From Mycobacterium sp. (lineage in GTDB: Bacteria > Actinomycetota > Actinomycetes > Mycobacteriales > Mycobacteriaceae), in the NCBI GenBank assembly GCA_020438845.1, contig JAGQTV010000091.1, positions 1-45,985 of the forward strand: a stretch of DNA of 45,985 nt. The letters run 5' to 3'. Shown piece after piece: positions 7,245-18,969 of this stretch. Numbering within the stretch: position 1 is the first letter of the stretch; the number at the start of each line of letters is the position of its first letter. Made by a program: the position numbers and the translations under genes. Below the pieces are notes generated by a model that searched no databases, was not told the origin of the DNA, and saw nothing but the letters and a program-made list of their open reading frames with translations.

Positions 7245-7258
7245 TAGAACACGTTTCA
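7245..7258. promoter_or_regulatory. KstR-type operator, original host copy
   Basis: TAGAACACGTTTCA fits the established KstR consensus TnnAACnnGTTnnA at every fixed position. It is centred about 38 bp upstream of the displaced host ATG (7290) and about 88 bp from the divergent secreted-protein start. KstR represses cholesterol/lipid catabolism genes in mycobacteria. I recall, unverified, that the M. tuberculosis counterpart of the split gene (Rv1894c) belongs to the KstR regulon. Confidence 0.65.
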
Positions 7259-7289: not shown

Positions 7290-7373
7290 ATGCACACTCC
7301 CCTATGCGACGAACTCGGCATCGAGTTCCCGATTTTTATGGATTGCGGACAATGGAGTTTAGACCGGTCTTAG
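7290..7373 (+). pseudogene. Displaced 5' end of the host nitronate monooxygenase-like gene
   Basis: ATG 7290 has AGGAG seven bases upstream. It opens a 27-codon frame whose first 16 residues (MHTPLCDELGIEFPIF) correspond to the N terminus of the gene that continues at 17747. After the shared LGIEFPIF the frame runs into element sequence and stops at TAG 7371-7373. This is the stranded host start left by integration: it keeps its own ribosome site and operator but can now make only a short peptide. Confidence 0.8.
7314..7337. other. Left attachment junction (attL) of the integrated element
   Basis: These 24 bases encode LGIEFPIF and align codon for codon with 17771-17794. Sixteen of 24 bases are identical, and every mismatch is at a third codon position. 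The longest exact run is GAGTT (7323-7327). Codons up to CCG use host-like C/G endings, while ATT TTT beyond looks element-derived, so strand exchange probably occurred between about 7323 and 7336. Serine integrases need only a 2-3 bp identical core; the exact dinucleotide cannot be fixed from one integrated copy. Confidence 0.7.
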
Positions 7374-7386
7374 CCCCAGCTTCGGT

Positions 7387-7392
7387 TAGGCT
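7387..7392 (+). promoter_or_regulatory. Candidate -10 box for a leaderless transcript of the zinc-ribbon membrane gene
   Basis: TAGGCT fits the mycobacterial TANNNT -10 pattern and lies six bases before ATG 7399, so transcription could start at the ATG itself. There is no ribosome site upstream of that ATG, which supports leaderless translation. No convincing -35 is visible. Confidence 0.4.
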
Positions 7393-7398
7393 CCTGCG

Positions 7399-7950
7399 AT
7401 GGGCCGGGGGAAGACCTACGACGCGATATGTCCACAATGCGGGACACTGCTAGCCATCCCATTCGGGTCACCCGAGCGAGTCAAGTGCGGCAAGTGTTCC
7501 ACGGTGACCGAACGAGCAAAGCTGGTAGCGCCCCGTCCGAAGAAGCCGATTTTCGTTCCTGCGGCCATCGGCTTCGGTTTGGCGTTCGCTCTGATCACAG
7601 CGCTGCTCCTGCTCAGCCAATGCGGCGGCGGCCATCACAGCAGTCGTGAAGGTGGTAACACCACTGCGCCGTCGCCTTCACGCACTACCACCGCAACCGC
7701 TCCTACTGTCACCGCGAGCCCAAATGGGGACGAAAGCGGATACCTTGCCGCCATCCAGGAGGAAGCGCCCTTCGTCTACAACAAGTACGGACAGGCGAAC
7801 ATCTTGGACCTCGGGCACAGGGTGTGCAAGTGGAGCTCTCAAGGTGTGGGCGACATCGACATCGTGATCAGAATTCAGGAGTTGGCGCCGATGTCTGATC
7901 GGGCTGCCAGCAAGATCGTGGTGAAAGCGCAACGCTATTTCGGTTGCTGA
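7399..7950 (+). CDS. Zinc-ribbon, single-pass membrane protein with a DUF732-like C terminus (element cargo)
   Basis: The 183-residue protein has an N-terminal zinc ribbon (Cys11, Cys14, Cys30, Cys33 as CPQC...CGKC). A single transmembrane helix at about residues 50-70 is followed by a low-complexity Ser/Thr/Pro linker. The C-terminal 75 residues have the DUF732 pattern, with a conserved internal cysteine and a terminal Cys183, as in many mycobacterial secreted proteins. Topology is probably a cytoplasmic ribbon with an extracytoplasmic DUF732. It is the outermost gene next to attL and reads opposite to the phage genes, the usual position for a gene expressed in the integrated state. Function is unknown; host-surface modification or superinfection interference is speculation. 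Confidence 0.75.
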   Translation: MGRGKTYDAICPQCGTLLAIPFGSPERVKCGKCSTVTERAKLVAPRPKKPIFVPAAIGFGLAFALITALLLLSQCGGGHHSSREGGNTTAPSPSRTTTATAPTVTASPNGDESGYLAAIQEEAPFVYNKYGQANILDLGHRVCKWSSQGVGDIDIVIRIQELAPMSDRAASKIVVKAQRYFGC

Positions 7951-7968
7951 CCGCTGCCGGGTAGGAAT

Positions 7969-8316
7969 TCAACGTCTCATTATGACGTAATCACAGTGAG
8001 CCGTGCGGCGGCTGCCGTTATAGAACCTGGGTTCGCCTTCTATCGACCACCGTTTGTCCTTCCACTCCACCTGAGACTGAGCACCCAGAACACCGGGATA
8101 ACCGACTAGCCGAAGGCGGTACTTGCTTTCGGTTTGGAAGCCGATCTTTTGGTCTTCGTCGCCGCCGGTAGCTGCTGCTGATGTGATGGGCTGGACTACC
8201 GCCCTACAGACCACACCGACCGAGCTAGCCCTGGTGATCGTGTTGCCGTCGATGTCGGTTGTGACTTCCTCGGGGAAGACGGTTACCAGTTCCGTTCCGC
8301 GTTGCAACAGACTCAT
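7969..8316 (-). CDS. Putative head-tail stopper/connector protein
   Basis: The 115-residue beta-rich protein occupies the last position of the head gene cluster. It has the general look of siphovirus head-closure (stopper) proteins: an early strand with LLQRGTELVTVFPEE, a polar loop and a final segment WSIEGEPRFYNGSRRTAHCDYVIMRR. Its start overlaps the preceding gene's stop (shared bases at 8316), implying coupling. Assignment rests on position and overall pattern, not on a motif. Downstream there are only 18 bp to the convergent membrane-protein gene. Confidence 0.55.
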   Translation of the reverse strand: MSLLQRGTELVTVFPEEVTTDIDGNTITRASSVGVVCRAVVQPITSAAATGGDEDQKIGFQTESKYRLRLVGYPGVLGAQSQVEWKDKRWSIEGEPRFYNGSRRTAHCDYVIMRR

Positions 8317-8696
8317 CAGCGACCGCTCATCATGGTTGAGAGGTCAGGCCCGAACGTGAACACCTTCCGGCGATAGCCCAGCGCCGCCCACTCCTCGGGA
8401 CGGATCTCCAACCGCCCGGAGGCCATCGCCTGACTGAGCATGTATGTGTAGTTCCCATCGGTCTCGGAGATCAGACCATCGGGGTTACGAACCAACCGAA
8501 GCACGGCTTCGGCCTCGACTTGGATCACGTCATCCTCGTTGATGTCGCCGGAGTCAACCTGGGCATCTAAATCGGTGATACGTCGCAGGATCATCCGCTC
8601 TACGTCGGCCAGCCTGGTCTCAACCAGGGTCGTCTCTTCGGGAGTCATCTCCCTGCCTAACCTGTCCTGTACGTCTGCGCTACTCGCGTAAGCCAT
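8316..8696 (-). CDS. Putative head-tail adaptor (Gp15/Gp19-like)
   Basis: The 126-residue, mostly helical protein begins MAYASSADVQDRLGREMTPEE and continues with LVETRLADVERMILRRI. This is the typical start of phage head-tail adaptor (connector) proteins that sit under the portal; the ETDGNYTYMLSQ region is also common in that family. It lies in the expected order after the capsid and before the stopper. In the satellite it would let element-encoded heads join helper-phage tails. It starts four bases after the upstream gene ends. Confidence 0.65.
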   Translation of the reverse strand: MAYASSADVQDRLGREMTPEETTLVETRLADVERMILRRITDLDAQVDSGDINEDDVIQVEAEAVLRLVRNPDGLISETDGNYTYMLSQAMASGRLEIRPEEWAALGYRRKVFTFGPDLSTMMSGR

Positions 8697-8700
8697 CTCG

Positions 8701-8985
8701 TCATTCCTTGTCTTGTAAGCGTTGTGAGTTCAAACGAACTCGGAAAAAGTTCTCCACCGAAACCCCAGCGGCCTCTCGGACAACCGTCAGCGTCTCCGAA
8801 GCGATACCGGGGGCTTGGGTGTTCAGCCAGTCAGCTACCCGTCCGCAGTGGGCTAGGTACTGGGCTACGGAGTCGAAGGGTTCAGCCCCTCGGAGTTCAT
8901 CGGGCATCCGGGCTATCAACGCGTCAGGGTCCATACCAGGAGCGGTCTTGTCGCGTCTGCGAGTTTTCGGCATCTGAGCAGGCAT
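8701..8985 (-). CDS. Small helical phage protein, function unknown
   Basis: The 94-residue protein starts with a basic segment (PKTRRRDKTAPG) followed by predicted helices (DALIARMPDEL, DSVAQYLAHCGRVADWLNTQ, ASETLTVVREAAG). No motif is recognised. It sits between the small terminase and the head-tail adaptor in the same orientation and is tightly spaced to the adaptor, so a packaging or head role is likely by context only. Confidence 0.5.
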   Translation of the reverse strand: MPAQMPKTRRRDKTAPGMDPDALIARMPDELRGAEPFDSVAQYLAHCGRVADWLNTQAPGIASETLTVVREAAGVSVENFFRVRLNSQRLQDKE

Positions 8986-9027
8986 CTTTTACTCACATCC
9001 TGTTGATAGTCGTGTGCATATCCGGGG

Positions 9028-9504
9028 TCACAGATCCGGTGCTCCCTCAAAGTTCAAGCGCGCCAACAGTTGTGACAGCAGCCCCCGCTGAAACCGGACC
9101 TCGGACACCAACGGGTGAATCACCTTCTGCCCAGCCGAACCCCGGACCGTCAGCGGCTCACTCCGGGCGGCGCGCTCTAACTCAGCGATAGCATCCGAAA
9201 CCCGGCAAGCGTGCGTGAGGATCTCCACCTTGTGCGGCTCATAGTCAAGCTCATATTCAGCTAAGACGGTCTTCCAGAGCTTTTGCCCAGCCGTACCAAA
9301 GCCTTTCGGCATTCGTAAAGTCATCGTTCTTCCGATCAATTCAGGCCCGATCAGGGCATTCGGTGAAAATCCAGCGGCTAAAAGTTGCAGCGGATGCGTC
9401 ACCCGCATGACGGCCCGGTCGACGTGCCCGCGTGGGGGTATGCCCCCCTGGGGGGCGGGTAACCCGTTGTGCCCCAACGGGTCTGGGGGTACCGTGGTGG
9501 CCAT
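9028..9504 (-). CDS. Phage terminase small subunit, P27 family
   Basis: The core pattern PKGFGTAGQKLWKTVLAEYELDYEPHKVEIL, then THACRVSDAIAELE, then GQKVIHPLVSEVRFQRGLLSQLL, is the hallmark of P27-type small terminases, which recognise the packaging site. No large terminase is encoded in the element, so it probably redirects a helper phage's packaging motor. The N-terminal 60 residues before the core are unusual and proline-rich. ATG 9504 is the chosen start; GTG 9513 and an internal ATG before the core are alternatives. Its 5' end is divergent from a small forward gene, so the two share a short control region. Confidence 0.7.
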   Translation of the reverse strand: MATTVPPDPLGHNGLPAPQGGIPPRGHVDRAVMRVTHPLQLLAAGFSPNALIGPELIGRTMTLRMPKGFGTAGQKLWKTVLAEYELDYEPHKVEILTHACRVSDAIAELERAARSEPLTVRGSAGQKVIHPLVSEVRFQRGLLSQLLARLNFEGAPDL

Positions 9505-9536
9505 CCCCTCCACCTCACCTACGACAGGAGACCCCC

Positions 9537-9743
9537 GTGATACCCCAGGCGATACTCGCCACCGCCATAGCCCTGCTACCCCTAGCCGGGGGCACCCCGG
9601 CCCCTACCCACTACCCCATGCCTGCCTCGGGGGTGGTGGCCTCACTGCTACCCGGTGGCATACCGGAGGACGGGGACGGGGTGGTACAGGAGGATGAGGA
9701 GGGGTGGAACTGCCTCACCATGGGTAACCGACGGTGCGGCTGA
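9537..9743 (+). CDS. Small exported-type protein with a Cys-containing C terminus (element cargo)
   Basis: GTG 9537 is preceded by AGGAG (9526-9530) with six-base spacing. It encodes 68 residues: a hydrophobic N-terminal segment (IPQAILATAIALLPLAGG), a Pro/Gly-rich stretch, an acidic run and the ending GWNCLTMGNRRCG. From memory, a similar CxTMGNxxCG ending recurs in small actinobacteriophage proteins of unknown role. It lies forward between reverse-strand terminase and zinc-finger genes, so it has its own promoter. It may be membrane-anchored or exported; no function is known. Confidence 0.6.
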   Translation: MIPQAILATAIALLPLAGGTPAPTHYPMPASGVVASLLPGGIPEDGDGVVQEDEEGWNCLTMGNRRCG

Positions 9744-9748
9744 CGCTG

Positions 9749-10066
9749 TCAGCTTTCTGGTTCGACCGTTCGATAGTCACCGGTTACGACCGCGTTCCAC
9801 TTCACCTCGGACATACCCACGGACTGGGCGACAGTCTTCAGGTGCGACTCAAGCATGCGGATCTCGGTCAGCGAATCGGACATCTCGACAGCCAGCGCCC
9901 ACAGCCGGGAACCCTCGTTTGCTCCGACCGCTTCACAGATCCGTTGCGCCCGATCCATCTGAGCATCAACCGCGTGACACACCGCCGAGCAGTACCGGTG
10001 TTGTCGTGAGCGTTTCGCTGTGCAGGTTTCCCGGCTGCATGTCCGGTCTCTGAATCGTCTGGTCAT
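9749..10066 (-). CDS. Small zinc-finger-like phage protein
   Basis: The 105-residue protein has a Cys/His-rich N terminus (CSRETCTAKRSRQHRYCSAVCHAV), consistent with one zinc site. A long helical region rich in Glu, Leu and Ser follows (RICEAVGANEGSRLWALAVEMSDSL, TEIRMLESHLKTVAQSVG). ATG 10066 has GAGGAAG upstream. It may bind DNA or RNA. It lies just after the capsid gene, which suggests a late role, but no family was recognised. Confidence 0.5.
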   Translation of the reverse strand: MTRRFRDRTCSRETCTAKRSRQHRYCSAVCHAVDAQMDRAQRICEAVGANEGSRLWALAVEMSDSLTEIRMLESHLKTVAQSVGMSEVKWNAVVTGDYRTVEPES

Positions 10067-10144
10067 TGCTTCCTCTTCGTAGGTACAAGGGAAGGGAAGA
10101 GATCCCCCGACCGAAGCCGGGGAACCCCCTCACCAACCAGCGAG

Positions 10145-10996
10145 CTAGACGCTCGCAGACTCCTCGTAGAGACGGACGATGCCCGCCGGGTTAGCGAAGC
10201 CGAACCCGACCCGAGACACAGCCCTGATCTGGACAGCGTCATACCCGAACGCGGCGTCTTTTGAAGTAGCCAACGTGGTACCCATTCGGCGAACCACCAT
10301 TATCTGAGACTGATCGACAGCCCAGGCGTTACCAGCGGTGACGTGCGGCGAGACCAGAGCGACCAGACCAGCGAGCTTTATCCCGTCATCGACGGTCTCC
10401 AGTAGGCCCATGTTCGATCCGCTAGCTTGCTTCGCCTTGGCCAGGGCCAGAGCCACGTCTGGGGCCAGGACGATATGGGTCAGTTCCGCACCTTCGGCAA
10501 TAGCCGCCGACTTCGCGTCGTGAACGTGATCGAGCGTGTCCCAAACCGACTCGGTATCCACCACCTGATACAGCACGTCGGACTCACCCTCCAGCGACAG
10601 CAACCCCGAAGGACCGTTACTGGTGGTGTCGGAGAAGAACGCGGCGTCGATCTTCTTTGCGATATCGCGGGCCAGAGACCTCCCGATCACAGCGGCGATA
10701 GCAGGGTCAGTGTCGTCGGCGGCTTCGTTGGAAACCTGAGTACGGCCAGCTACCTTCGTCGGGACAACGACAACCTCGGAGGTATCGGGATCAACCAGCG
10801 TGATCTCGGTGTTTTCAGCGAACCATCCCGAAGAAGGATCACTCACAAGAATCGGGAACCGGACCTGGTGTTTGGTGGTATCGACCACGGTGCCAATCTT
10901 GAAAGCGACGCTCTTAGCGTCCACCTCGGTATCAATGAGCTTCCCGTAATCCTCCGGAGTAAAAGCGTTCTCCAGAGTTGAGTTCAATACAGCCAT
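10145..10996 (-). CDS. Major capsid protein, HK97 fold
   Basis: The 283-residue protein has the features of phage HK97-type capsid proteins. An N-arm leads to VRFPILVSDPSSGWFAENTEIT, followed by the central helix region LARDIAKKIDAAFFSDT and a late beta segment with AFGYDAVQIRAVSRVGFGFANPAGIVRLY. No protease domain is fused and no separate protease gene is visible, so the shell may not be proteolytically matured, or a helper protease is used. A GAGGAG site precedes ATG 10996, and a strong hairpin (11021-11039) lies in the leader. The downstream gap 10067-10144 contains only a short GC hairpin (CCCCG/CGGGG). Confidence 0.85.
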   Translation of the reverse strand: MAVLNSTLENAFTPEDYGKLIDTEVDAKSVAFKIGTVVDTTKHQVRFPILVSDPSSGWFAENTEITLVDPDTSEVVVVPTKVAGRTQVSNEAADDTDPAIAAVIGRSLARDIAKKIDAAFFSDTTSNGPSGLLSLEGESDVLYQVVDTESVWDTLDHVHDAKSAAIAEGAELTHIVLAPDVALALAKAKQASGSNMGLLETVDDGIKLAGLVALVSPHVTAGNAWAVDQSQIMVVRRMGTTLATSKDAAFGYDAVQIRAVSRVGFGFANPAGIVRLYEESASV

Positions 10997-11020
10997 TCTG
11001 TTTGCTCCTCAAACAGTTGT

Positions 11021-11039
11021 CGGCCCGGATTCCGGGCCG
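11021..11039 (-). promoter_or_regulatory. Perfect hairpin in the capsid mRNA leader
   Basis: CGGCCCGGA, one base, then TCCGGGCCG is a near-gapless palindrome 25 bp upstream of the capsid start codon. It has no T-run, so it is not an intrinsic terminator. It could stabilise the abundant capsid message, separate it from the scaffold message by processing, or bind a regulator. The rest of the gap between the scaffold-like and capsid genes (11040-11142) shows nothing else. Confidence 0.45.
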
Positions 11040-11142
11040 GGGTGAATGTGTGAAAGACACCGGGCACGGCCAGATGTCGGGATGGGGCACTGCCCCGAAC
11101 GCGGGTTACCGCCTAGCGAGACGGCGACCTAGCGGGAAAGAT

Positions 11143-11565
11143 CTAAGGACGGAGAAGGTCCGAGAACGTAGGGGACGGCTTACCGCCGCCGCCGTGAAGG
11201 CCCTGGGTGGGATCGACAGCCGGTGAATGCTTCGCTAGTCCTGGCCTTGAGCCGACGAGATTCCGGACCACGGCGTCAACCTTGCTGGGATCAACCTCGC
11301 CATCACTCATCAGGTCGGAAACGGTGACGCCACCGACCGAGAACAGATCAGCAGGCTCGGCTAGGCCACGGCTGGCGATACGCTCGGCTTCCCGTTGGTG
11401 GAGTTGCTCAATCCGGGCGATGAGTTCGTCCCGCTCCTGCCTGGCGCTGTTGCGCTCTACCCGATACTTCGCTTCTCGGTTCCCGGTGGGCTGCTCGGCC
11501 TGGTCCGGTTCTTGAGCCGGCTCAAGGTTGGTTTCGGCTTCCGGTGTTGTCGTGGTTTCTGTCAT
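11143..11565 (-). CDS. Scaffold-like head assembly protein
   Basis: The 140-residue protein is acidic at its N terminus, with TTTPEAETNLEPAQEPDQAEQ repeats. It then forms a strongly charged coiled coil (YRVERNSARQERDELIARIEQLHQREAER) and ends in a Gly/Pro-rich tail. That architecture, placed directly upstream of the capsid gene, is typical of phage scaffolding proteins. ATG 11565 is chosen because GGAG precedes it and the upstream extension overlaps the neighbouring gene. Family assignment is by architecture and location only. Confidence 0.65.
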   Translation of the reverse strand: MTETTTTPEAETNLEPAQEPDQAEQPTGNREAKYRVERNSARQERDELIARIEQLHQREAERIASRGLAEPADLFSVGGVTVSDLMSDGEVDPSKVDAVVRNLVGSRPGLAKHSPAVDPTQGLHGGGGKPSPTFSDLLRP

Positions 11566-11566
11566 G

Positions 11567-11926
11567 TCACTTGCTCCAATCGAAAACGAGCCGCCAACCA
11601 AGCGGGAGGGAGCCAGCATCAACCGGCGGCCTTCCGTAGAGGGGCACCACCTGGCCGCGTGGTGGGCTGTAACTTCCAGCCGGGGTCATCTGCCGAACCC
11701 GCTCCACCGGCATATCCAGCCACCGCGACAACTCCGATTCAGTCATCAGCAGCGGGGCGTTCTCCTCCACGCACAACAGACACATCCGGGGGTCGATACG
11801 GTCGTACCGGTCGGTCGGGAACTCGCTGTGAGGCTTACGGGTACGGCAATCGCGGCATGTCTTCTCCGGGCTGGTTCTAGGGGTGGTTTTGGCTTCTATA
11901 ACTGCGCTGGTCAAAGCGTCGTCCAA
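11567..11926 (-). CDS. Zinc-ribbon protein with a helix-turn-helix-like C terminus
   Basis: The 119-residue protein has a zinc knuckle typical of phage HNH/recombination accessory proteins (CRDCRTRKPHSEFP...RMCLLC). A predicted DNA-binding helix pair follows (TESELSRWLDMPVERVRQM) and then a basic, aromatic tail. The TTG start at 11926 is weakly supported; it lies just past an intrinsic terminator for the upstream transcript, so its own promoter may overlap that terminator. The frame ends one codon before the scaffold-like gene. It may regulate the head operon, but that is inference. Confidence 0.5.
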   Translation of the reverse strand: MDDALTSAVIEAKTTPRTSPEKTCRDCRTRKPHSEFPTDRYDRIDPRMCLLCVEENAPLLMTESELSRWLDMPVERVRQMTPAGSYSPPRGQVVPLYGRPPVDAGSLPLGWRLVFDWSK

Positions 11927-11928
11927 TC

Positions 11929-11955
11929 AAAAAAGGCCCGGTGTAGTCGCCGGGC
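11929..11955 (-). terminator. Intrinsic terminator after the 11990-12447 gene pair
   Basis: Read on the reverse strand, the stem GCCCGG/CCGGGC with an eight-base loop is followed by six T residues. It closes the transcript of the two small genes upstream and separates them from the head genes. Confidence 0.75.
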
Positions 11956-11989
11956 GGGTCTGGGTGGTGTGGTGGTACCGGAGAGGCGG

Positions 11990-12280
11990 TTAGGCGGCGG
12001 CGTGCTCGGCCTCGGAGGCCGGTTGCCAGGTTTCGTCTGCCCGGATGTCAGCCAGCGAGGTGAACAGCCCAGCCGGGGGTGGCGGCTTCTGGTAGCGCCG
12101 CATATACAGATCACGTCTCCGGGCTATGTCGCCGCCGTGCCAAGGTTCGTCCCCCGCTTCTCGGATGGCAGCCACATACGGCTCGTTAAGAGTCAGGTAT
12201 TCCTGAAACTGGGCCTCGCGCTGGTCGTCTAGGGACATCTGCCAGAGCGGCAACGGCGGTCTAGTTAGTGGCTCAGTCAT
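11990..12280 (-). CDS. Small charged phage protein, unknown
   Basis: The 96-residue protein is rich in acidic and aromatic residues (DDQREAQFQEYLTLNEPYVAAIREAGDE, DIARRRDLYMRRYQKPPPP). Its ATG overlaps the preceding gene's stop (TGATG), so the two are translationally coupled. A strong terminator follows. No family was recognised. Confidence 0.5.
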   Translation of the reverse strand: MTEPLTRPPLPLWQMSLDDQREAQFQEYLTLNEPYVAAIREAGDEPWHGGDIARRRDLYMRRYQKPPPPAGLFTSLADIRADETWQPASEAEHAAA

Positions 12281-12447
12281 CAGCCCCGGTCCCAGGTCGC
12301 AACGGTCAAGCCGTCAAAAGGGTTACCGGGAACGTCACCAAACAAGACGGTGGAACGGTCGGGGTAGGTGTCCCAGACGGTGCGGTAGGCGGGCTGGCGG
12401 TCGGAGTCGGCCAGATGTTCTAGGGCTTTAAGAATCGGGTCAAGCAT
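12280..12447 (-). CDS. Small unknown protein of 55 residues
   Basis: The reading frame from ATG 12447, preceded by AGGAGA, encodes 55 residues starting MLDPILKALEHLADSDRQPAYRTV and ending TVATWDRG. The stop overlaps the start of the next gene. The strong ribosome site and the coupling are the evidence that it is real. Function unknown. Confidence 0.55.
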   Translation of the reverse strand: MLDPILKALEHLADSDRQPAYRTVWDTYPDRSTVLFGDVPGNPFDGLTVATWDRG

Positions 12448-12485
12448 GGTTTCTCCTGGGTGTTGTGCGCCCGAAGGCGCATACG

Positions 12486-12512
12486 AAAAAGTCCCCGGCT
12501 ATCACCAGGGAC
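12486..12512 (-). terminator. Intrinsic terminator downstream of the helicase gene
   Basis: On the reverse strand the stem GTCCCTGG/CCGGGGAC (one mismatch) with loop TGATAG is followed by five T residues. It terminates the helicase transcript, so the 55-residue gene just below needs its own promoter or read-through. Confidence 0.7.
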
Positions 12513-12539
12513 TCGGTGGACGGAAACGATGAAGGACAT

Positions 12540-12601
12540 CCCCTCGCTACCGCTCGGGGTGCTGTTCTGTTGGGATACCCCCCTCGCTATCGCTCGGGGG
12601 G
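12540..12601. repeat. Two similar GC hairpins in the helicase 3' untranslated region
   Basis: Hairpin one (12540-12559) has arms CCCC/GGGG around TCGCTACCGCTC. Hairpin two (12578-12601) has arms CCCCCC/GGGGGG around TCGCTATCGCTC. The loops differ at one base, so these are two copies of one element. They lie between the candidate replication iterons and the terminator. Role unknown. Confidence 0.6.
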
Positions 12602-12640
12602 CCGTTCATCGTCCTTACTAGTGCTGGAAGTGAAAAGTTC

Positions 12641-12765
12641 TGCACCTTTTGCACCCAAACTACCTCTGATCAGGCAACTTACCCGCGAGTAGGGTGCAAC
12701 GGGGGTGCAAAACTCGCCTCGTAGGGTGCAAAACTCGGGCTGTAGGGTGCAAAACTCGCCTGCTC
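12641..12765. repeat. Iteron-like repeats, candidate replication origin of the element
   Basis: GGGTGCAA occurs four times in direct orientation (12692, 12703, 12724, 12745). The last three copies belong to 21-bp units sharing GGGTGCAAAACTCG. One inverted copy, TTGCACCC (12649-12656), and a partial one, TGCACC (12641-12646), lie just outside the helicase stop. The direct copies are inside the last 30 codons of the helicase and encode its SFAPY repeats. Satellites and phage P4 commonly place iterons beside their replication initiator/helicase gene, so this is a plausible origin. Confidence 0.55.
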
Positions 12766-14085
12766 AGGACCGGGTTCAAACTCCCAACCACGGACACCTT
12801 TACGGGTCTTCGGCTCCCCCAACACTGCCGCTACACGGGCGTAGAAATTGCCTTTGGTCAGTGCGTTTTTTCCGTTGCCGTCTTCGATCCAGTTCCGGTA
12901 ATCGGCATAAACCCGCTGGCGCTCCTGAAAGTTCTTCAGAGTCGTCTCCTCCAGCCACGTCCTGACCGGGTCGGAGCGGTTAGCGAAGACGGCGTGTGCC
13001 CGCTGGCCGGGGTCAGACTCCCGAATCTGGAACGGATGAGCCACAGCGTGCGCTAACAACTTGCCCGTGATCGCCGGAAGCTCAGCCGACAGACGAGACT
13101 CCAGATCGGTATCCGAACCGTCGAACTGATTAGGAAACTCCACCACCTCCCAGCGACGGAGATAGCCGTGGGACGTATCGGCAGAGGTCGGAATCTGGTT
13201 GGCGCTGAAGACCGGAACCGCCCAGACCCTGCCCTTGAACGGCTTAGCGTTCTTGACATCCATACGGACGGTGTCTTCCCCGGTGATCTGTTTGAACTTG
13301 CCGGTGTGGGTGATGTGTTCGCCGTCGATGTCCCCGACGATGTTGATCGGCACGCCGTAGAGGTCGGAAGCCGCAAACCGGGTAGACAACTCCTGAAGCG
13401 AGACATGCGCGGCGTTCTGTTTGCCGATCATCGACTCCACCAACCGGAGCAGGACACCTTTGCCGTTGCGGCCAGACCCAGAGAACATCACCGCTTTCTG
13501 ACGCGGGTTCCCCGGCACCAACAGATAGGCCAGGATGTCGAGAACACGCTCTGGATCACCGGGATGAAGGACCGACTTCAAGAACAGATCAAACTCCGGG
13601 GTCGGGGCATCGAAATCGGGTTCCACCTGAAGCTGGTAGGTCGTCACCACGTGGGAGTCGTGCGGATGGATCTCGCCAGATTCGATATGGAACAGCCCAG
13701 ACGGCACCGAGATATAACGCGTATCCGGCCAATCAGGCTGAATCAACTCCCCGTCATTGAACAGCTTTGAGTACAGGTAGTTTGCGACCGTGGTCGTGTC
13801 GGGGGTTCGGAACGTGCGCCCGATCTTCCGGGGTAGCCGCCTAGCGACCACCTTGCGGGATTCCTTCCACACGCCGTTGTCGTACTCCCAGAACGCATCC
13901 GAGATCGGATCGACCCGAATAGGGCCATCTGCCAACACAGCGCCCGCCCAGTACGGAGTGTTAAAGCCGTTGGAGCGGTCTGGATCGACGTGGCCGTGGG
14001 TTACCCTCGGATTGACAGGCAGAGAGGCACAACAGCACGGGAGCCTGTTGCAGAAACGGCATACATTCTCCCCGGCGCTACTCAC
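12679..14085 (-). CDS. SF3 (D5/P4-type) replicative helicase
   Basis: The 468-residue protein has an N-terminal Cys cluster (CRFCNRLPCCC, residues 9-19) and a D5-N-like middle region. Its AAA+ superfamily-3 core shows Walker A GSGRNGKG (203-210), Walker B in INIVGDIDGE (248-257), KQITGEDTVRMDVK, the sensor asparagine in VFSANQIP and an arginine-rich YLRRWEVVEFP. No primase Toprim domain is visible. It resembles the phiRv1 protein Rv1582c in type and length (recalled). It probably initiates replication of the excised element. The C-terminal 25 residues repeat SFAPY because iteron-like DNA lies in the gene's 3' end. The start is GTG 14085, which overlaps the end of the upstream 46-codon gene. 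Confidence 0.82.
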   Translation of the reverse strand: MSSAGENVCRFCNRLPCCCASLPVNPRVTHGHVDPDRSNGFNTPYWAGAVLADGPIRVDPISDAFWEYDNGVWKESRKVVARRLPRKIGRTFRTPDTTTVANYLYSKLFNDGELIQPDWPDTRYISVPSGLFHIESGEIHPHDSHVVTTYQLQVEPDFDAPTPEFDLFLKSVLHPGDPERVLDILAYLLVPGNPRQKAVMFSGSGRNGKGVLLRLVESMIGKQNAAHVSLQELSTRFAASDLYGVPINIVGDIDGEHITHTGKFKQITGEDTVRMDVKNAKPFKGRVWAVPVFSANQIPTSADTSHGYLRRWEVVEFPNQFDGSDTDLESRLSAELPAITGKLLAHAVAHPFQIRESDPGQRAHAVFANRSDPVRTWLEETTLKNFQERQRVYADYRNWIEDGNGKNALTKGNFYARVAAVLGEPKTRKGVRGWEFEPGPEQASFAPYSPSFAPYEASFAPPLHPTRG

Positions 14086-14218
14086 TGGCAGCCCCCTTTA
14101 AGACCAACGCCGCCAAAGCATCACGGGCCTCGTTGCGCTGCTGCCTAAGCTGCTGATTCTCCCGTCGTAGGCGACGGACCTCGCCCTGCCAATCGGCGGG
14201 TAATTCTTCGATACTCAT
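14078..14218 (-). CDS. Small coiled-coil protein of 46 residues
   Basis: ATG 14218 has a very strong AGGAGGG site seven bases upstream. The product is MSIEELPADWQGEVRRLRR followed by a Gln/Arg-rich helix and a short hydrophobic end. Its TAG (14078-14080) lies inside the start of the helicase gene, an eight-base overlap that couples the two. It may be a helicase partner or DNA-binding helix. The reading frame is below usual length cut-offs. Confidence 0.65.
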   Translation of the reverse strand: MSIEELPADWQGEVRRLRRENQQLRQQRNEARDALAALVLKGAASE

Positions 14219-14284
14219 ATTTTTCCCTCCTGGGGATATAGGCCGGATAAACCGGCGATTAGTGGGTGCGGCGTCAAGCCGCTA

Positions 14285-14446
14285 CTACGAGGAGGCCAAA
14301 GCCTGGATTTCTTTGAGTCGGAGACGCGCGTGGCGACACGCTTCTCGGTACCGCTGTTCGTTGGACCGTGAGCACACAACACAACTGCCGTTGCTGCGCC
14401 TGTCCTGTGGCCCTCTGATCTCGTGGCCGTTCCTGCACGTTGTCAT
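14285..14446 (-). CDS. Small zinc-finger protein of 53 residues
   Basis: From ATG 14446 (site GGAGGGAG upstream) the product begins MTTCRNGHEIRGPQDRR, continues with SCVVCSRSNEQRYREAC and ends in a basic helix. The CxxxH...CxxC arrangement is typical of small actinophage zinc-finger proteins, some of which are HNH remnants. No catalytic HNH residues are present. It lies between a terminator (14487-14511) and the coiled-coil/helicase pair. Confidence 0.6.
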   Translation of the reverse strand: MTTCRNGHEIRGPQDRRSNGSCVVCSRSNEQRYREACRHARLRLKEIQALASS

Positions 14447-14486
14447 GTGCTCCCTCCGGTTAAATGCGCCATCGACGGCGGGGAAT

Positions 14487-14511
14487 AAAAAAGGCCCTGA
14501 GAACCAGGGCC
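14487..14511 (-). terminator. Intrinsic terminator upstream of the helicase cluster
   Basis: On the reverse strand, perfect arms GGCCCTG/CAGGGCC with a five-base loop are followed by six T residues. It ends the transcript that starts near 15500 and carries the 195-residue gene. Confidence 0.8.
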
Positions 14512-14537
14512 TGATGTGGCTGGGTGAAGGGCAGAGA

Positions 14538-14585
14538 CCCCCGGCTGCCGACACTGTAAGGAAGTAGTCCCAAAACAGCCGGGGG
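14538..14585. repeat. Long-loop inverted repeat in a non-coding stretch
   Basis: CCCCCGGCTG (14538-14547) and CAGCCGGGGG (14576-14585) are perfect 10-base arms around a 28-base loop. They lie in a 225-bp non-coding gap (14512-14736) just upstream of a terminator, so a structured RNA leader, trailer or small RNA is possible. CACTTTTAGTG at 14718-14728 is a second small symmetric element. No coding frame with a ribosome site was found in this gap. Confidence 0.5.
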
Positions 14586-14736
14586 GCTCAAGCCGTGAGT
14601 AACACCCAGAATTACGTCACGGGACAACCGCTGGAATCCCCATGAAAGCCAGCGGAAGAGTAAGAGCCCAAACGGTCGGGCTGGGAGTGGCAGCGCAACA
14701 AACCTCTGGCCCCTACACTTTTAGTGAATAAAGGCT

Positions 14737-15324
14737 TCACGCCCTGACCAGGACTTTCTCCTTGGATCGACGGGCGCGCTGTTGGTCGTTGCGGAGTTTC
14801 CTCTTGCACTCAGGCTGACCACACTGGACAGCGGGACGGCCCCGGGCGCGGTAAGTACCCGACTCGTATTGCTGACGGCACAAGCACCAATTGCACGAAC
14901 ACCCCGCCCAGTCGCTCCAGCCGAACTGACAGACCCACTCGGTTTCAGCCCCCCGGATCACCTCACCGCAGTATCGGCACGGAGTCGGCACCAGGAAGGT
15001 AGGCGCACCCCCCAACGTCCGCAGGAGGAACCCGTGGCCGCTACTGACCAGATCACCGACCGCCTCCACCTGACGAAGACGCTCACCGCTAGGGCGGCGC
15101 GCCCGCAAACCCTCACGGTCGTCTCTGTAGGTATCAACACGATCTTCGTTACTGACACACACCTCAGACTCGGGAGCGCCCTCTTCGTACTCCTCAAACC
15201 GGGACGGCGGTACCCAGTCGTCATCACCTTTGACACGCTGAAAGTCGGACGTGAAATCGGTGTGGCGCTCTAGGTAGTCCTCCGACGCGGCGTTCTCCGA
15301 CTGGGACACTTGTAACGAATCCAA
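14737..15324 (-). CDS. Cys-rich putative nucleic-acid-binding phage protein
   Basis: The 195-residue protein has an acidic N-terminal half (DDDWVPPSRFEEYEEGAPESE) and a Cys-rich C-terminal half. The visible Cys clusters are CRYCG, CSCNWCLC and CGQPECKRKLRNDQQRARR, suggesting two zinc sites followed by a strongly basic helix. TTG 15324 is supported by GGAGG six bases upstream. It is the first gene after the candidate promoter at 15504-15530, and a palindrome lies in its long leader, so it may be an early regulator or replication protein. No known family was recognised. Confidence 0.6.
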   Translation of the reverse strand: MDSLQVSQSENAASEDYLERHTDFTSDFQRVKGDDDWVPPSRFEEYEEGAPESEVCVSNEDRVDTYRDDREGLRARRPSGERLRQVEAVGDLVSSGHGFLLRTLGGAPTFLVPTPCRYCGEVIRGAETEWVCQFGWSDWAGCSCNWCLCRQQYESGTYRARGRPAVQCGQPECKRKLRNDQQRARRSKEKVLVRA

Positions 15325-15435
15325 CAGATTCCTCCACTCCTGGAATTGGAAAAGGGTCCACCACGCTGGCAGACCCGGAAAACAACAAAGGGCCGACCAA
15401 AAAACTGGCCTGCCCTGGGCTTATGCTGGAATTTT

Positions 15436-15450
15436 GGGTAGCGTCTACCC
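15436..15450. promoter_or_regulatory. Perfect 15-bp palindrome in the early leader region
   Basis: GGGTAG, three bases, CTACCC lies between the candidate promoter and the 195-residue gene, in a 243-bp gap (15325-15567) that otherwise shows no gene. The size and symmetry fit a dimeric repressor operator. No repressor gene is recognised in the element, so the regulator could be the 88-residue protein or a helper-phage protein. Confidence 0.5.
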
Positions 15451-15503
15451 ACAGCAAAGGCGCGGCAAGGACTGATCTAGATTGTTCAACCCACAGAGTG
15501 CCG

Positions 15504-15530
15504 CTACTAATATTTTACCATGCATGTCAA
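15504..15530 (-). promoter_or_regulatory. Candidate promoter of the early region
   Basis: On the reverse strand an exact TTGACA (15525-15530) is followed 15 bases later by TAGTAG (15504-15509). The spacing is short for a sigma-A promoter, but the surrounding DNA is the most AT-rich of the element and it precedes the early genes. The mapping is tentative. Confidence 0.35.
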
Positions 15531-15567
15531 TAGGCAGGATTTTTTTGTAGGTTTCCAACAACCTCGG

Positions 15568-15834
15568 TCACCCCCAGCAGCTAGGCGTTCCAAGCGCACC
15601 GCGCAACCGAAGACTGACCTCACACCCAGGCTGCAACGCAGGCGAGAACACCTCCACCAAAAAACCGAACTCCACCAGTTTGTAGACCGCGTTATACAGA
15701 TCCGTCTCAGACATATCGACATCAACACCCAGCACCCACAGCGCAGCAAGCGACTCGGCAACAGTCATGTCCGGGTGGCGGTCGATAGCTTCCAGCCATT
15801 CGTAGGTGTCGGCCTCGGTCGGTGCGTTCGTCAT
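15568..15834 (-). CDS. Small helical protein next to the integrase, possible directionality factor or regulator
   Basis: The 88-residue acidic protein contains helices EADTYEWLEAIDRHPDM and VAESLAALWVLGVDVDMSETDLYNAVYKLVEFGFLVEV. This is compatible with a small winged-helix or helical bundle in which YNAVYKLVEFGFL is a recognition-like segment. It starts 105 bp after the integrase stop in the same direction. Serine-integrase elements usually encode a recombination directionality factor near the integrase, and this is the best placed candidate, but those factors share no common sequence. ATG 15834 has GAGAGGG upstream. Confidence 0.55.
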   Translation of the reverse strand: MTNAPTEADTYEWLEAIDRHPDMTVAESLAALWVLGVDVDMSETDLYNAVYKLVEFGFLVEVFSPALQPGCEVSLRLRGALGTPSCWG

Positions 15835-15938
15835 GGTGCCCTCTCGGTCGTGTGAATCTGACGAGGGGAAGTTATGGCGGCAAGTAAGGCACCGCACCTT
15901 GACACTGAAAGAACTAGGTCTGAACTCTGGTTATGTAG

Positions 15939-17648
15939 TCAGATTCGGCGTGTCCAAGTGATCTCGCTGCCGTTGTCAGGGTCATCGGGGCGAGCCGCGA
16001 ACTCGGCAATCCTTTGGGCTGTCTCCTCCTGCGCTGCAAGGTTCAACCGTGCGAAGTAGTCGCCGTCAGACTCACCATCCCGCTGTGCGAGCGGGTCACC
16101 TTCATTGTTTGCCCGAATGGCTGCTTGCGGATCTGTCACGTCCATCGCGAAAAGGCGATACTCGGGAACCCGGACACCGATCTCGTTCTTGATCGCGGAT
16201 ACCTCGACTGACACCCTTCGTTTCAACAGGAGTTGCCTTCGGCCTTCGGTATCTGCCGCCGCCCATGCGTCAGCGTAGGTCTGTTGAAGCTTCCTAACCT
16301 TCCAACCACCTTGGGACACCGGCAGTTTCTCAAGCGCCGCCATCCGGCGGTCGATGGCTTCCAGTTGGCTTTGGTAGAACTTCCGCATCGTGTCCGATGT
16401 CGCCGACCCCAACATCAGGGCTATCTCCTGGGCAGCGCGCTTCGCGTCCGCGAGTTGCTCTTCGTGATTGTCGCCAGGGACGTAATACGGCTCCTCGATC
16501 TGCTCATGGCCGTACCACCACAGAAACTGCTGTTCCGCGAGCTCCTCGACCTCGTCAGCTTTGGCGATGTTCGTCCCATGTTTGGGCAGCAGTTCCCCTC
16601 CCCCGCCTGATGTTGCGCCGCCTGTGCATTGGTAATAGCGATAAGTCTTGCCCCTGGCCTTGCTGTGATGCTGCCGAAGGTGCATCGGCTTCTTGCATAC
16701 GGCGCAAATGGCGACACCGAGCATCGGACTCACATTCTCGGAGCGGTTGGACACCTTGAAGGAACGAGCACCGAGCGCAGTCTGAAGACGGTCGAACTTC
16801 TCCCGCGAGATCAACTCGGGCGCTTTGCGAATCGGTAGCCCATCCTCGTCCCTGAGCGTCTTTCCGTTATGGGTCGCATAGCCGAGCAGCGTCTCTGACT
16901 TCAACAACTGTCTGATAGTCGCGTTCGACCACTTGGTGCCCTTAGTCGGCTTACCCGCACGGTGCCGTATGTAGTCAGACGGCGGTAGCTCGCCCGCTGT
17001 GTTCAATTCTTTGGCGATGGATTCGGTTGACCGGCCCGCAAGCACTTTGTCAATGATCGACATCAGCACCTGTGAAGCGTGTTCGTCAGGGACCAACTCG
17101 TGGCCGTCGCCGTCTTTCCGCTTCTGCGACTTGTAGCCGTAGTAAGGCTTGCCGCCACCCCACCGACCTGTCTCCCGGAGCTTCTTCTGAGATCCACGGG
17201 TCCGTTCCCGTATTGCCTCAAGCTCCCCTTCAGCCACCCCGGCGATGACGCTGGCGACCATCCGGCCAACCCAGTTACTCAGGTCGATGTTGTCGGAGAC
17301 GCAGACGAGTGTCTTCTCGTTTTCCTGTAGCCACCCGAAGACCTTGTGCATCGGGATAGCGCGGCGAGAGATCCGGTCAAGTTTCCACGAACACAAGATG
17401 TCCCACTGATGGATCTTCTCCTGATCCGTCAGCCACGGGCCCAGTCCCGGTGTATCAAACGGGTCCACCCCACCGGATACGTCTAGGTCTTCTGCCCAGC
17501 CGACGATGGCGTGATCGTTGGAGTCAGCCCACTGTTGGATTAATTCACGCTGACGCTCGACGCTCGTACTCTCCTCGGTAACCCTGCTGAGCCGGATTCT
17601 GCCCAACACGCGAAGACCCGAAGCCGCGTCACCATCTGATATCCGCAT
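15939..17648 (-). CDS. Large serine recombinase (phage integrase)
   Basis: The 569-residue protein has a resolvase N-domain with the RxS...ERQ signature (RIRLSRVTEESTSVERQRE; catalytic Ser21, Arg19) and DRISRR (Asp90, Arg91, Arg94). A recombinase domain follows (GGGKPYYGYKSQKRKDG, GTKWSNATIRQLLKSETLLGYATHNG). A zinc beta-ribbon begins CAVCKKPMHLRQHHSK, then a long coiled coil (KRAAQEIALMLGSATSDTMRKFYQSQLEAIDRRMAALEKL). These are the parts of the phiC31/Bxb1 class, which recombines attP and attB with a very short core. The start lies about 130 bp from attR, the standard integrase-attP arrangement. Its target here is the 5' end of a nitronate monooxygenase-like gene. The promoter region contains a KstR-type palindrome. 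Confidence 0.93.
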   Translation of the reverse strand: MRISDGDAASGLRVLGRIRLSRVTEESTSVERQRELIQQWADSNDHAIVGWAEDLDVSGGVDPFDTPGLGPWLTDQEKIHQWDILCSWKLDRISRRAIPMHKVFGWLQENEKTLVCVSDNIDLSNWVGRMVASVIAGVAEGELEAIRERTRGSQKKLRETGRWGGGKPYYGYKSQKRKDGDGHELVPDEHASQVLMSIIDKVLAGRSTESIAKELNTAGELPPSDYIRHRAGKPTKGTKWSNATIRQLLKSETLLGYATHNGKTLRDEDGLPIRKAPELISREKFDRLQTALGARSFKVSNRSENVSPMLGVAICAVCKKPMHLRQHHSKARGKTYRYYQCTGGATSGGGGELLPKHGTNIAKADEVEELAEQQFLWWYGHEQIEEPYYVPGDNHEEQLADAKRAAQEIALMLGSATSDTMRKFYQSQLEAIDRRMAALEKLPVSQGGWKVRKLQQTYADAWAAADTEGRRQLLLKRRVSVEVSAIKNEIGVRVPEYRLFAMDVTDPQAAIRANNEGDPLAQRDGESDGDYFARLNLAAQEETAQRIAEFAARPDDPDNGSEITWTRRI

Positions 17649-17714
17649 GTCAGCAACCGTATCAAAGTTCCACTATCCATCAAGACTGACACCCGAAACA
17701 TTGATTCACTTTTC

Positions 17715-17728
17715 TAGAACGTGTTCCA
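17715..17728. promoter_or_regulatory. KstR-type operator carried by the element beside attR
   Basis: TAGAACGTGTTCCA fits TnnAACnnGTTnnA at every fixed position and shares CTAGAAC..GTT with the host copy at 7245-7258. Flanking sequences of the two copies do not otherwise align, so this is not a simple duplication. It lies between the integrase start and the restored oxidoreductase start and overlaps the expected -35 region of the candidate leaderless promoter. Confidence 0.6.
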
Positions 17729-17735
17729 ATTTTGC

Positions 17736-17741
17736 TATCAT
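17736..17741 (+). promoter_or_regulatory. Candidate -10 box giving a leaderless transcript of the restored oxidoreductase
   Basis: TATCAT (TANNNT) ends five bases before ATG 17747, and no Shine-Dalgarno sequence precedes that ATG. Both facts fit a leaderless mRNA starting at the ATG. The -35 position would fall within the KstR-type operator. Confidence 0.5.
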
Positions 17742-17746
17742 CAAGT

Positions 17747-18880
17747 ATGCGGACAGCGCTTTCACAAAGTCTTGGAATTGAGTTTCCCATCTTCGCCTTC
17801 ACCCACTGCCGTGACGTCGTAGTGGCGGTGAGCAGGGCCGGCGGCTTCGGGGTGCTGGGCGCGGTGGGTTTCACCCCCGAACAACTCGAGATCGAATGCA
17901 CCTGGATTGACGAGCACATCGGCGACCATCCCTACGGTGTCGACATCGTGATTCCGAACAAGTACGAAGGCATGAACGCCGATATGTCCACCGAGGAGCT
18001 CACCACGATGCTGCGGAAAATGGTGCCGCAGCAGCATCTGGACTTCGCCAAGAAGATTCTCGCCGATCACGGAGTGCCGACCGGCGATGCCGACTCGCAC
18101 GCTCTGCAGTTGCTCGGGTGGACCGAGGCGACAGCCACCCCACAGGTTGAAGTGGCGCTCCGCCACCCCAAGGTCACGCTGATCGCCAACGCGCTCGGCA
18201 CACCGCCGGTCGACATGATCACCCGCATTCACGAATCCGGCCGTAAGGTCGCGGCCCTCTGCGGCTCCCCGGCGCAGGCGCGAAAGCACGCCGACGCTGA
18301 CGTCGACATCATCATCGCCCAGGGTGGCGAGGCCGGCGGCCACTGCGGCGACATCGGATCGATCGTGCTGTGGCCGCAAGTCGTCAAAGAGGTCTCGCCT
18401 CGGCCGGTGCTCGCGGCCGGCGGGATCGGCAGCGGCGAACAGATCGCCGCGGCGCTGGCACTGGGCTGCCAGGGCGCGTGGTCGGGCTCGCAGTGGCTGA
18501 TGGTCGAGGAAGCCCACAACACCCCGGTGCAGCAGGCGGCCTATGCCAAGGCCACCAGCCGGGACACGGTCCGCAGCCGGTCGTTCACCGGCAAGCCGGC
18601 TCGCATGCTGCGCAACGACTGGACCGAGGCCTGGGAGACTCCCGGGAATCCCGAACCGTTGGGAATGCCGTTGCAGTACATGGTCTCCGGCATGGCAGTG
18701 GCGGCCACCAGCAAGTACCCGAACGAGACCGTGGATGTCGCTTTCAACCCGGTGGGTCAGGTGGTCGGCCAGCTGGCCAAAGTGGAGAAAAGCGCCGCGG
18801 TGATCGAGCGGTGGGTCGAGGAGTACCTCGAGGCCACTAACCGCCTAAACGAACTGAACGAGGCGGCGGCCTCAGTATGA
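17747..18880 (+). CDS. Nitronate monooxygenase-like flavin oxidoreductase, 5' end supplied by the element
   Basis: The 377-residue protein belongs to the 2-nitropropane dioxygenase/nitronate monooxygenase TIM-barrel family that binds FMN. It shows an N-terminal GIEFPIFAFTH, AVSRAGGFGVLGAVGFTPEQLE, the diagnostic AQGGEAGGHCG and the phosphate-binding AAGGIGSGEQIAAALALG followed by GAWSGSQW. The frame reopens inside the element at ATG 17747, so the first 13-14 codons are element-derived and replace MHTPLCDELGIEFP with MRTALSQSLGIEFP. The enzyme is probably still functional because FMN-binding segments are intact. Mycobacterial relatives are linked to lipid or sterol catabolism, which fits the KstR-type sites on both sides. 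Substrate is unknown. Confidence 0.88.
   Translation: MRTALSQSLGIEFPIFAFTHCRDVVVAVSRAGGFGVLGAVGFTPEQLEIECTWIDEHIGDHPYGVDIVIPNKYEGMNADMSTEELTTMLRKMVPQQHLDFAKKILADHGVPTGDADSHALQLLGWTEATATPQVEVALRHPKVTLIANALGTPPVDMITRIHESGRKVAALCGSPAQARKHADADVDIIIAQGGEAGGHCGDIGSIVLWPQVVKEVSPRPVLAAGGIGSGEQIAAALALGCQGAWSGSQWLMVEEAHNTPVQQAAYAKATSRDTVRSRSFTGKPARMLRNDWTEAWETPGNPEPLGMPLQYMVSGMAVAATSKYPNETVDVAFNPVGQVVGQLAKVEKSAAVIERWVEEYLEATNRLNELNEAAASV
17771..17794. other. Right attachment junction (attR) of the integrated element
   Basis: These 24 bases encode LGIEFPIF in frame with the downstream gene. Codons CTT GGA ATT GAG TTT use A/T endings (element side); ATC TTC GCC TTC ACC use C endings (host side). Differences from 7314-7337 are all at third codon positions. 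The exchange lies in or just after the shared GAGTT (17780-17784). Confidence 0.7.
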
Positions 18881-18886
18881 GCGCGG

Positions 18887-18969
18887 TATGAGCCCGGTAT
18901 GAATCAGGATGAGCCCGGTATGAGTCAGGATGAGCCCGTATGAGTCAGGATGAGCTCAGCGTGACTGAG
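18887..18969. repeat. Four-copy 20-21 bp tandem repeat downstream of the oxidoreductase
   Basis: Units at 18887-18907, 18908-18928, 18929-18948 and 18949-18969 share GATGAGCCCGGTATGAGTCAG. Unit three is one base short and unit four is degenerate. The array starts right after the stop codon and fills the gap to the convergent secreted-protein gene. Copy number probably varies between strains. Confidence 0.85.

Follow-up and report, generated by a model that had tools for sequence, protein, structure and literature searches.

How can a mobile element enter the 5' end of a conserved protein-coding gene and leave that gene whole? The question is raised by a 45,985-nt stretch of Mycobacterium sp. 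DNA (contig JAGQTV010000091.1, called the window here at its full length), in which a sequence-only reading had a host gene interrupted near its 5' end by a serine-integrase element that brings a coding copy of the gene's first codons and a new ATG. Our analysis supports this layout, and we regard the anatomy of the element and its junctions as firm: an integrated element of about 10.5 kb (7328..17784, no strand assigned, ends set by the crossover proposed below) separates a displaced native start from a rebuilt NMO-family gene of the Rv1894c/MSMEG_3519 type (17747..18880, + strand; PF03060, E 1.1e-39). The main feature of the locus, absent from that earlier reading, is a predicted KstR operator that the element itself carries before the new start. 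That the attachment site rebuilds both the host gene and its KstR control is, taken as a whole, an interpretation in which we have good confidence. It is very likely that integration rebuilds the NMO gene rather than breaking it, and likely that the rebuilt gene would stand under KstR control.

The target is a core mycobacterial gene that is near-universal in the genus, with a match at E<=1e-120 in 373 of the 396 genomes searched in the genus. In the window the left junction starts with MHTPLCDE and the right junction with MRTALSQS, and LGIEFPIF comes next in both. When empty-site loci were read in the best-hit genomes, all 29 began M/VHT..CD.LGIEFPIFAFTHC (a pattern also given as M/VHT..CD.LGIEFPIFAFTHCRDVV), and no uninterrupted homologue starting MRTALSQS, which would have marked the left copy as an unrelated paralogue, was found among them. 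The left copy is therefore the displaced native start (MHTPLCDELGIEFPIF, to which the element adds 11 residues and a stop; 7290..7373, + strand, read from sequence, translation and the native starts of relatives), and MRTALSQS is made by the element. Two exceptions to the native-type start, genomes G375 and G370, resemble prophage scars.

The native gene is connected with KstR in published work. The available text of Kendall 2007 (PMC1995591) reports a KstR motif before Rv1894c, positive in an electrophoretic mobility shift assay (EMSA), and before the orthologue MSMEG_3519, positive by reverse transcription quantitative PCR; the EMSA given there concerns the Rv1894c box and not the box of the element. 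The published 29-bp Rv1894c probe occurs in two of the 396 genus genomes (G272:C85:1252-1280 and G285:C139:1850-1878) and ends in both 30-31 bp before the NMO start (1312 and 1909, respectively). The native promoter in the window has 22 consecutive bases in common with this probe, the longest run elsewhere in the window being 9, and we infer that the target NMO gene is the Rv1894c equivalent. Scored with a matrix built from 47 published sites (median score 24.7), the native operator TAGAACACGTTTCA (7245..7258, + strand), an exact TNNAACNNGTTNNA match now orphaned at attL, reaches 27.9. A KstR motif lies within 120 nt of all 72 distinct native NMO starts read (a peptide pattern applied to the collected loci, most of them in best-hit genomes, gave 77 distinct rows, and the 72 are the 73 native-type rows less the scar of G370, locus L133). 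KstR itself is encoded in the window's genome beside its auto-operator (match to a PDB chain named KstR, E 6e-114).

The element-borne candidate operator, TAGAACGTGTTCCA (17715..17728, + strand; matrix score 26.9), lies 32 nt before the new ATG. Between the two, at -11..-6, stands the -10-like hexamer TATCAT (17736..17741, + strand), where other box-bearing elements have TACAGT; as a putative promoter it would give a leaderless transcript, presumably translated as such. The TNNAACNNGTTNNA consensus occurs three times in 46 kb, with 0.28 expected: at the native start, at the element-made start and at one other place (44452-44465). This third match is weak by matrix (11.3, the next best in the window), and only the native and element boxes score like published KstR sites. 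At both of these start-linked boxes the motif TnnAACnnGTTnnA is present upstream of a regulon gene.

We propose that the satellite-like 10.5-kb element enters codon 13 of the KstR-regulon NMO gene through its large serine integrase, with TT as the probable core. The integrase (569 aa; 15939..17648, - strand) has PF00239, PF07508 and PF13408, the set of Resolvase N-domain, Recombinase and Zn-ribbon found in large serine integrases, and is 56-63% identical to six integrases of phages or elements with the same attP. The coding part of the P arm of attP runs from the replacement ATG through MRTALSQSLGIE into codon 13, of which it has the first two bases (17747..17784, + strand; a like block occurs in free phages). 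The arm would thereby supply the 5' end of a gene in finished form, with a KstR operator that overlaps or adjoins a -10-like element, a start and 12 in-frame codons. As the sequence shows, integration exchanges the native KstR-controlled start, orphaned at attL, for one that the element brings to attR together with a KstR box, and because the start is swapped together with a box, the gene stays intact and probably remains under KstR.

The same arrangement is found elsewhere. A search for more copies with an exact pattern, attP sites of other codons falling outside it, yielded two further integrated elements with both junctions, in genome G254 (its two starts about 11.3 kb apart; C26, L076/L099) and in IMG/VR locus L074 (a contig of 10,995 bases). 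In addition, 58 mycobacteriophage records carry this attP (RefSeq and GenBank duplicates included), and 20 of them cover the whole block from box to start. None of the 57 mycobacteriophage rows listed has an annotated feature where the peptide matches. A box scoring 28.0 stands at exactly -21 of an ATG that opens the reading M(R/K)TALSQS(M/L)(N/G)IEFP in lysogen G254 and in the free phages Benedict, UnionJack, Archetta, Naca, DarthPhader, SheaKeira and Chargerpower (IMG/VR loci L067-L073 and L075 take their presumed phage names from matching record length and attP). The box of L074 scores 21.5, also at -21; that of the window is 11 nt farther from its ATG, with the -10-like hexamer at the same place. 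Over six elements (window excluded) the 18-bp box is 98% identical, and the sequence just upstream is 35-37% identical (37% for the 35 nt at -60..-26). In L074 the integrase lies at the attL end; box and replacement start occupy the opposite end, next to a Ser/Thr kinase gene. Since the box goes here with the start, away from the integrase, we conclude that the box belongs to the start and not to the integrase.

Integrase relatives in IMG/VR served as controls. Of 62 such loci, 9 carry the NMO peptide and 53 do not; across these 53 (233 kb; the sequence 5' of the integrase match amounts to 200 nt or more in 37 and to less in 16) no KstR site scores above 12.4 by matrix. Two of them match the plain consensus (L188:2080 and L202:3057), both with matrix scores below 8. 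The box as a general trait of this integrase family is thus rejected or at least made unlikely, the 53 control loci having no comparable site. Scans with a single integrase sequence returned four stretches from IMG/VR, with no relative among them, and one match only from GTDB contigs, at 24% identity.

Furthermore, the element-made start is present in two genomes in which no intact integrase of this family was found. A search with the phage-type N-terminus gave a match in 390 genus genomes; three genomes among the matches listed (the window's, G254 and G375) reach 94% identity, G370 was recognised as a fourth upon reading its start and box, and other diverged scars like it may lie beyond the matches listed. 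Both G375 (L149:11280-12434) and G370 (L150) have a phage-type box at -21 and a phage-type NMO start. For the integrase, G375 yielded no relative and G370 just one at 33% identity, which lies on a different contig. In G375 no prophage was evident by eye in the 11 kb upstream, and the neighbours are like those in the window. G370 has only 1.4 kb upstream on its contig and keeps 182 bp that align at 71% to the P arm of G254, into the 5' end of the integrase. As both genomes keep the start with no intact integrase found, the phage-made start can apparently outlive the prophage, and two hosts apparently use it after prophage loss. They would be natural scars in which the host appears dependent on a gene start made by a phage.

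How do the two junction copies of the target codons differ? Sequence and translation confirm that LGIEFPIF is encoded at 7314-7337 on the left and at 17771-17794 on the right, as the earlier reading had it. Every difference is indeed at a third codon position; the mismatches number 7 of 24 bases and not the 8 reported, so this observation is upheld in its pattern and peptide and corrected in its count. The differing codons, left/right, are CTC/CTT, GGC/GGA, ATC/ATT, TTC/TTT, CCG/CCC, ATT/ATC and TTT/TTC, with GAG unchanged, and the chance that 7 random mismatches in 24 sites all fall on the 8 third positions is 8/346,104 = 2.3e-5. The junctions differ at two bases in G254 and at four in L074, third positions throughout, which makes 13 of 13 attL/attR mismatches third-position over the three lysogens. 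Two of the four in L074 are non-synonymous (I to M, F to L). The wobble-only mismatch thus extends to the other lysogens, and the identical junction peptide does not; the expectation that attP and attB would differ only at wobble positions is borne out as to position, though not every change is silent. Symmetry of attP is best when centred on the TT of codon 13 in all eight elements tested (8 of 14 collected), which points to this dinucleotide as the crossover (7326..7327 at attL and 17783-17784 at attR, + strand). Assigned by that crossover, the seven differing places would read CTT GGA ATT TTC CCG ATT TTT in the element, where 5 of 7 codons end in A/T, and CTC GGC ATC TTT CCC ATC TTC in the host, where 6 of 7 end in C/G, so the contrast drawn between A/T-ending element codons and C/G-ending host codons is only roughly true.

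A pattern of this kind might arise with no selection on the enzyme at all, if one integrase binds both attP and attB and the target codons fix the first and second bases. As a full account we think this possible and not probable. It fits the symmetry of attP about TT and the 13 of 13 third-position mismatches, two of them non-synonymous. It also fits the P' arm (7328..7361, + strand, the element side of attL, compared with free-phage attP sites), whose first 10 bases vary at wobble positions only, with amino-acid changes I/M and F/L, although this half lies outside the rebuilt gene. For the bases near the core we accept it: wobble-only mismatch there is best explained as mainly the mark of an integrase that would read the protein-conserved first and second bases and tolerate the third. 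It leaves unexplained, however, the start codon, the KstR operator, the synonymous-only change in codons 3-8 and the conservation of the distal P arm. Codons 3-8 (TALSQS) have at least 5 changes over 14 sequences, all in third positions and with no amino-acid change. Of the 18 inferred changes over the P arm as a whole, 12 fall on third positions (binomial p 0.002). Its distal part is variable at 7 of 24 sites, versus 17 of 21 for sites comparably far out on P' (Fisher p 8e-4); because the 14 sequences are related, both p-values are indicative only. Outside the core, the variation of attP at wobble positions is not always synonymous. Since P' near the core varies only at wobble positions while lying outside the rebuilt gene, two causes are called for, integrase tolerance and a protein-level constraint that the P arm alone appears to show; selection on lysogen fitness may be what imposes the latter. 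The claim that the identity of the whole eight-residue peptide is a sign of selection for the enzyme thus finds no support, the P' half being wobble-only as well. Likewise, conservation of the peptide among related attP sites holds on one side only, TALSQS being unchanged and P' allowing I/M and F/L. What survives of the earlier interpretation is a rebuilt start with a constrained P arm.

Several observations weigh against the view that the attachment site rebuilds the gene together with its KstR control. Of the 58 attP records, 38 (Theia type, near-identical mutually) match only from the start codon and are without the box, and in the four Theia-type loci read the codons are kept behind an AGGAG stretch and a GTG start, again without it. 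The window's own box is at -32 and not at -21. Codons 9-10 of the free phages read MN or LN, unlike the Leu-Gly of the host (Leu at codon 9 in 71 and Gly at codon 10 in 72 of the 72 native starts), and the attB of these phages was deduced from the peptide match and not from lysogens of the phages themselves. The third-position excess on the P arm has p 0.06 when variable sites are counted (Fisher) instead of inferred changes, and the 14 P-arm sequences, 11 of them free-phage loci and several near-identical, give non-independent counts. The short 5' flanks of 16 control loci belong here as well. A need for the box in recombination is rejected or at least made unlikely by the 38 phage records without it, whose integration is presumed.

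An extension of the proposed start swap is a two-way exchange of promoters shaped by selection, in which the element's first gene would gain the native KstR promoter as the host gene gets a KstR-controlled replacement. We put this forward tentatively and with more doubt than belief. The gene that the orphaned native promoter would control in the window encodes a 183-aa membrane-type protein (7399..7950, + strand; N-terminal Cys pairs, one hydrophobic stretch, weak PHROG 658 match); in L074 the corresponding position is taken by the integrase. Against the exchange, G254 is without a clear gene at that place. If it were true, prophage gene expression would track the host sterol signal. In five free phages the gene directly after P', in the NMO direction, encodes a small membrane protein (L006:861-1280, L007:915-1343, L096:2661-3080, L097:2660-3079 and L098:2661-3086), with DUF2637 (Pfam) in both that were scanned; after integration this gene would sit behind the native KstR promoter. 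In L074, 80 bp separate the native NMO ATG at attL from the start of the integrase (L074:10838; 10850-10995), which may thus be read from the host KstR promoter.

Could the box instead serve the element, for example by placing the integrase or lysogeny under host KstR, its position before the new start being incidental? In the window, in G254 and in the box-bearing phages read, the box does have the divergent integrase gene on one side and the new start on the other. However, in L074 it goes with the new start and the integrase is at the other end, a layout that makes integrase control unlikely; no comparable site is present in the 53 related loci that are without the NMO peptide (16 of them with little 5' sequence), and both scars retain box and start. 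We therefore consider this improbable. Marginally less probable still is that the P arm is the relic of an ancient capture of a host 5' end, kept by descent without present function. The starts MKTALSQS and MHTALCDE do have M, T, A and L in common, and the order of box, then start is that of the host. Descent alone fits poorly with flanks only 35-37% identical beside a box at 98% and codons 1-8 at 94%, with the synonymous-only change of TALSQS, and with a box-to-start spacing of 21 or 32 nt as against 35-94 in hosts. An unrelated paralogue or a chance peptide match, for which the shortness of the peptide is the sole argument, is ruled out by the empty sites, 29 of 29 with the left-type start, and by two more lysogens of the same architecture; the nearest cases to an uninterrupted homologue of the MRTALSQS type are G375 and G370, the latter with prophage debris.

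Apart from its attachment site, the element encodes an HK97-type capsid, a head-tail adaptor (Ad1), a head closure protein (Hc1), a terminase small subunit (TerS), a primase-type protein and the integrase, according to two profile scans of 10 proteins each, i.e. part of its open reading frames (ORFs). From this gene content of head genes, small terminase, primase-type protein and integrase it looks like a phage satellite, perhaps of the PICI-like kind, which has about 10-15 kb and part of the head genes but not a complete virion set. Capsid and head-tail adaptor matches were obtained both here and in L074. The three elements at this one integration site (window, L074, G254), each of about 10.5-11.3 kb, form a candidate mycobacterial satellite family. 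PADLOC gave no match for the three window proteins scanned. In L074 a Ser/Thr kinase gene adjoining the P arm (L074:419-1624) matches the PADLOC Stk2 and mad6-type models and is possible defence cargo. Short GTATGAGTCAGGATGAGCCC-type repeats lie directly 3' of the NMO stop codon (18880-18960).

We found no literature report of a KstR operator on an attachment arm or of an NMO attB, in a search that left subscription papers largely outside. Parts of the arrangement have parallels. Phage 21 and e14 in icd likewise carry a synonymous copy of the end of their target, the difference being that it is the 3' end of icd, with long homology and no known promoter or operator. SXT/R391 elements supply a new promoter and N-terminus to prfC. 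As described in the available text of PMC2791158, SXT integrates in the 5' end of prfC by a tyrosine recombinase, with nearly identical attP and attB. The likeness is that a conserved gene is entered at its 5' end, here with an element-made in-frame start; the window element differs in using a serine integrase, in sharing 17 of 24 bases, and in supplying a host-regulon operator with the start. Membership in the SXT/R391 family itself is rejected, the integrase being of the serine type. MabA1 prophages of M. abscessus, in the available text of PMC8092301, use a tyrosine integrase and rebuild the 5' end of a tRNA-Met gene, for which the phage promoter is then required; the target is thus a tRNA, and operator mimicry is not mentioned in that text. 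The window's box is like known operators of the KstR regulon in its TnnAACnnGTTnnA motif and in a matrix score within the published range, and unlike them in being carried on the attachment arm of a mobile element. For dozens of sequenced phage records whose attB long core homology does not reveal, the comparison gives an attB prediction (the start of MSMEG_3519), and it offers a system for studying integrase evolution toward wobble tolerance in coding targets. In M. abscessus, prophages with a serine integrase are described as disrupting the ORFs that they enter (PMC8092301), and so are Bxb1 and other mycobacterial serine-integrase phages (PMC9262239, PMC8092301). Like Bxb1-type phages, the window element uses a large serine integrase within a protein-coding gene; whereas such prophages are described as gene-breaking, this family looks built to repair both the gene and its control.

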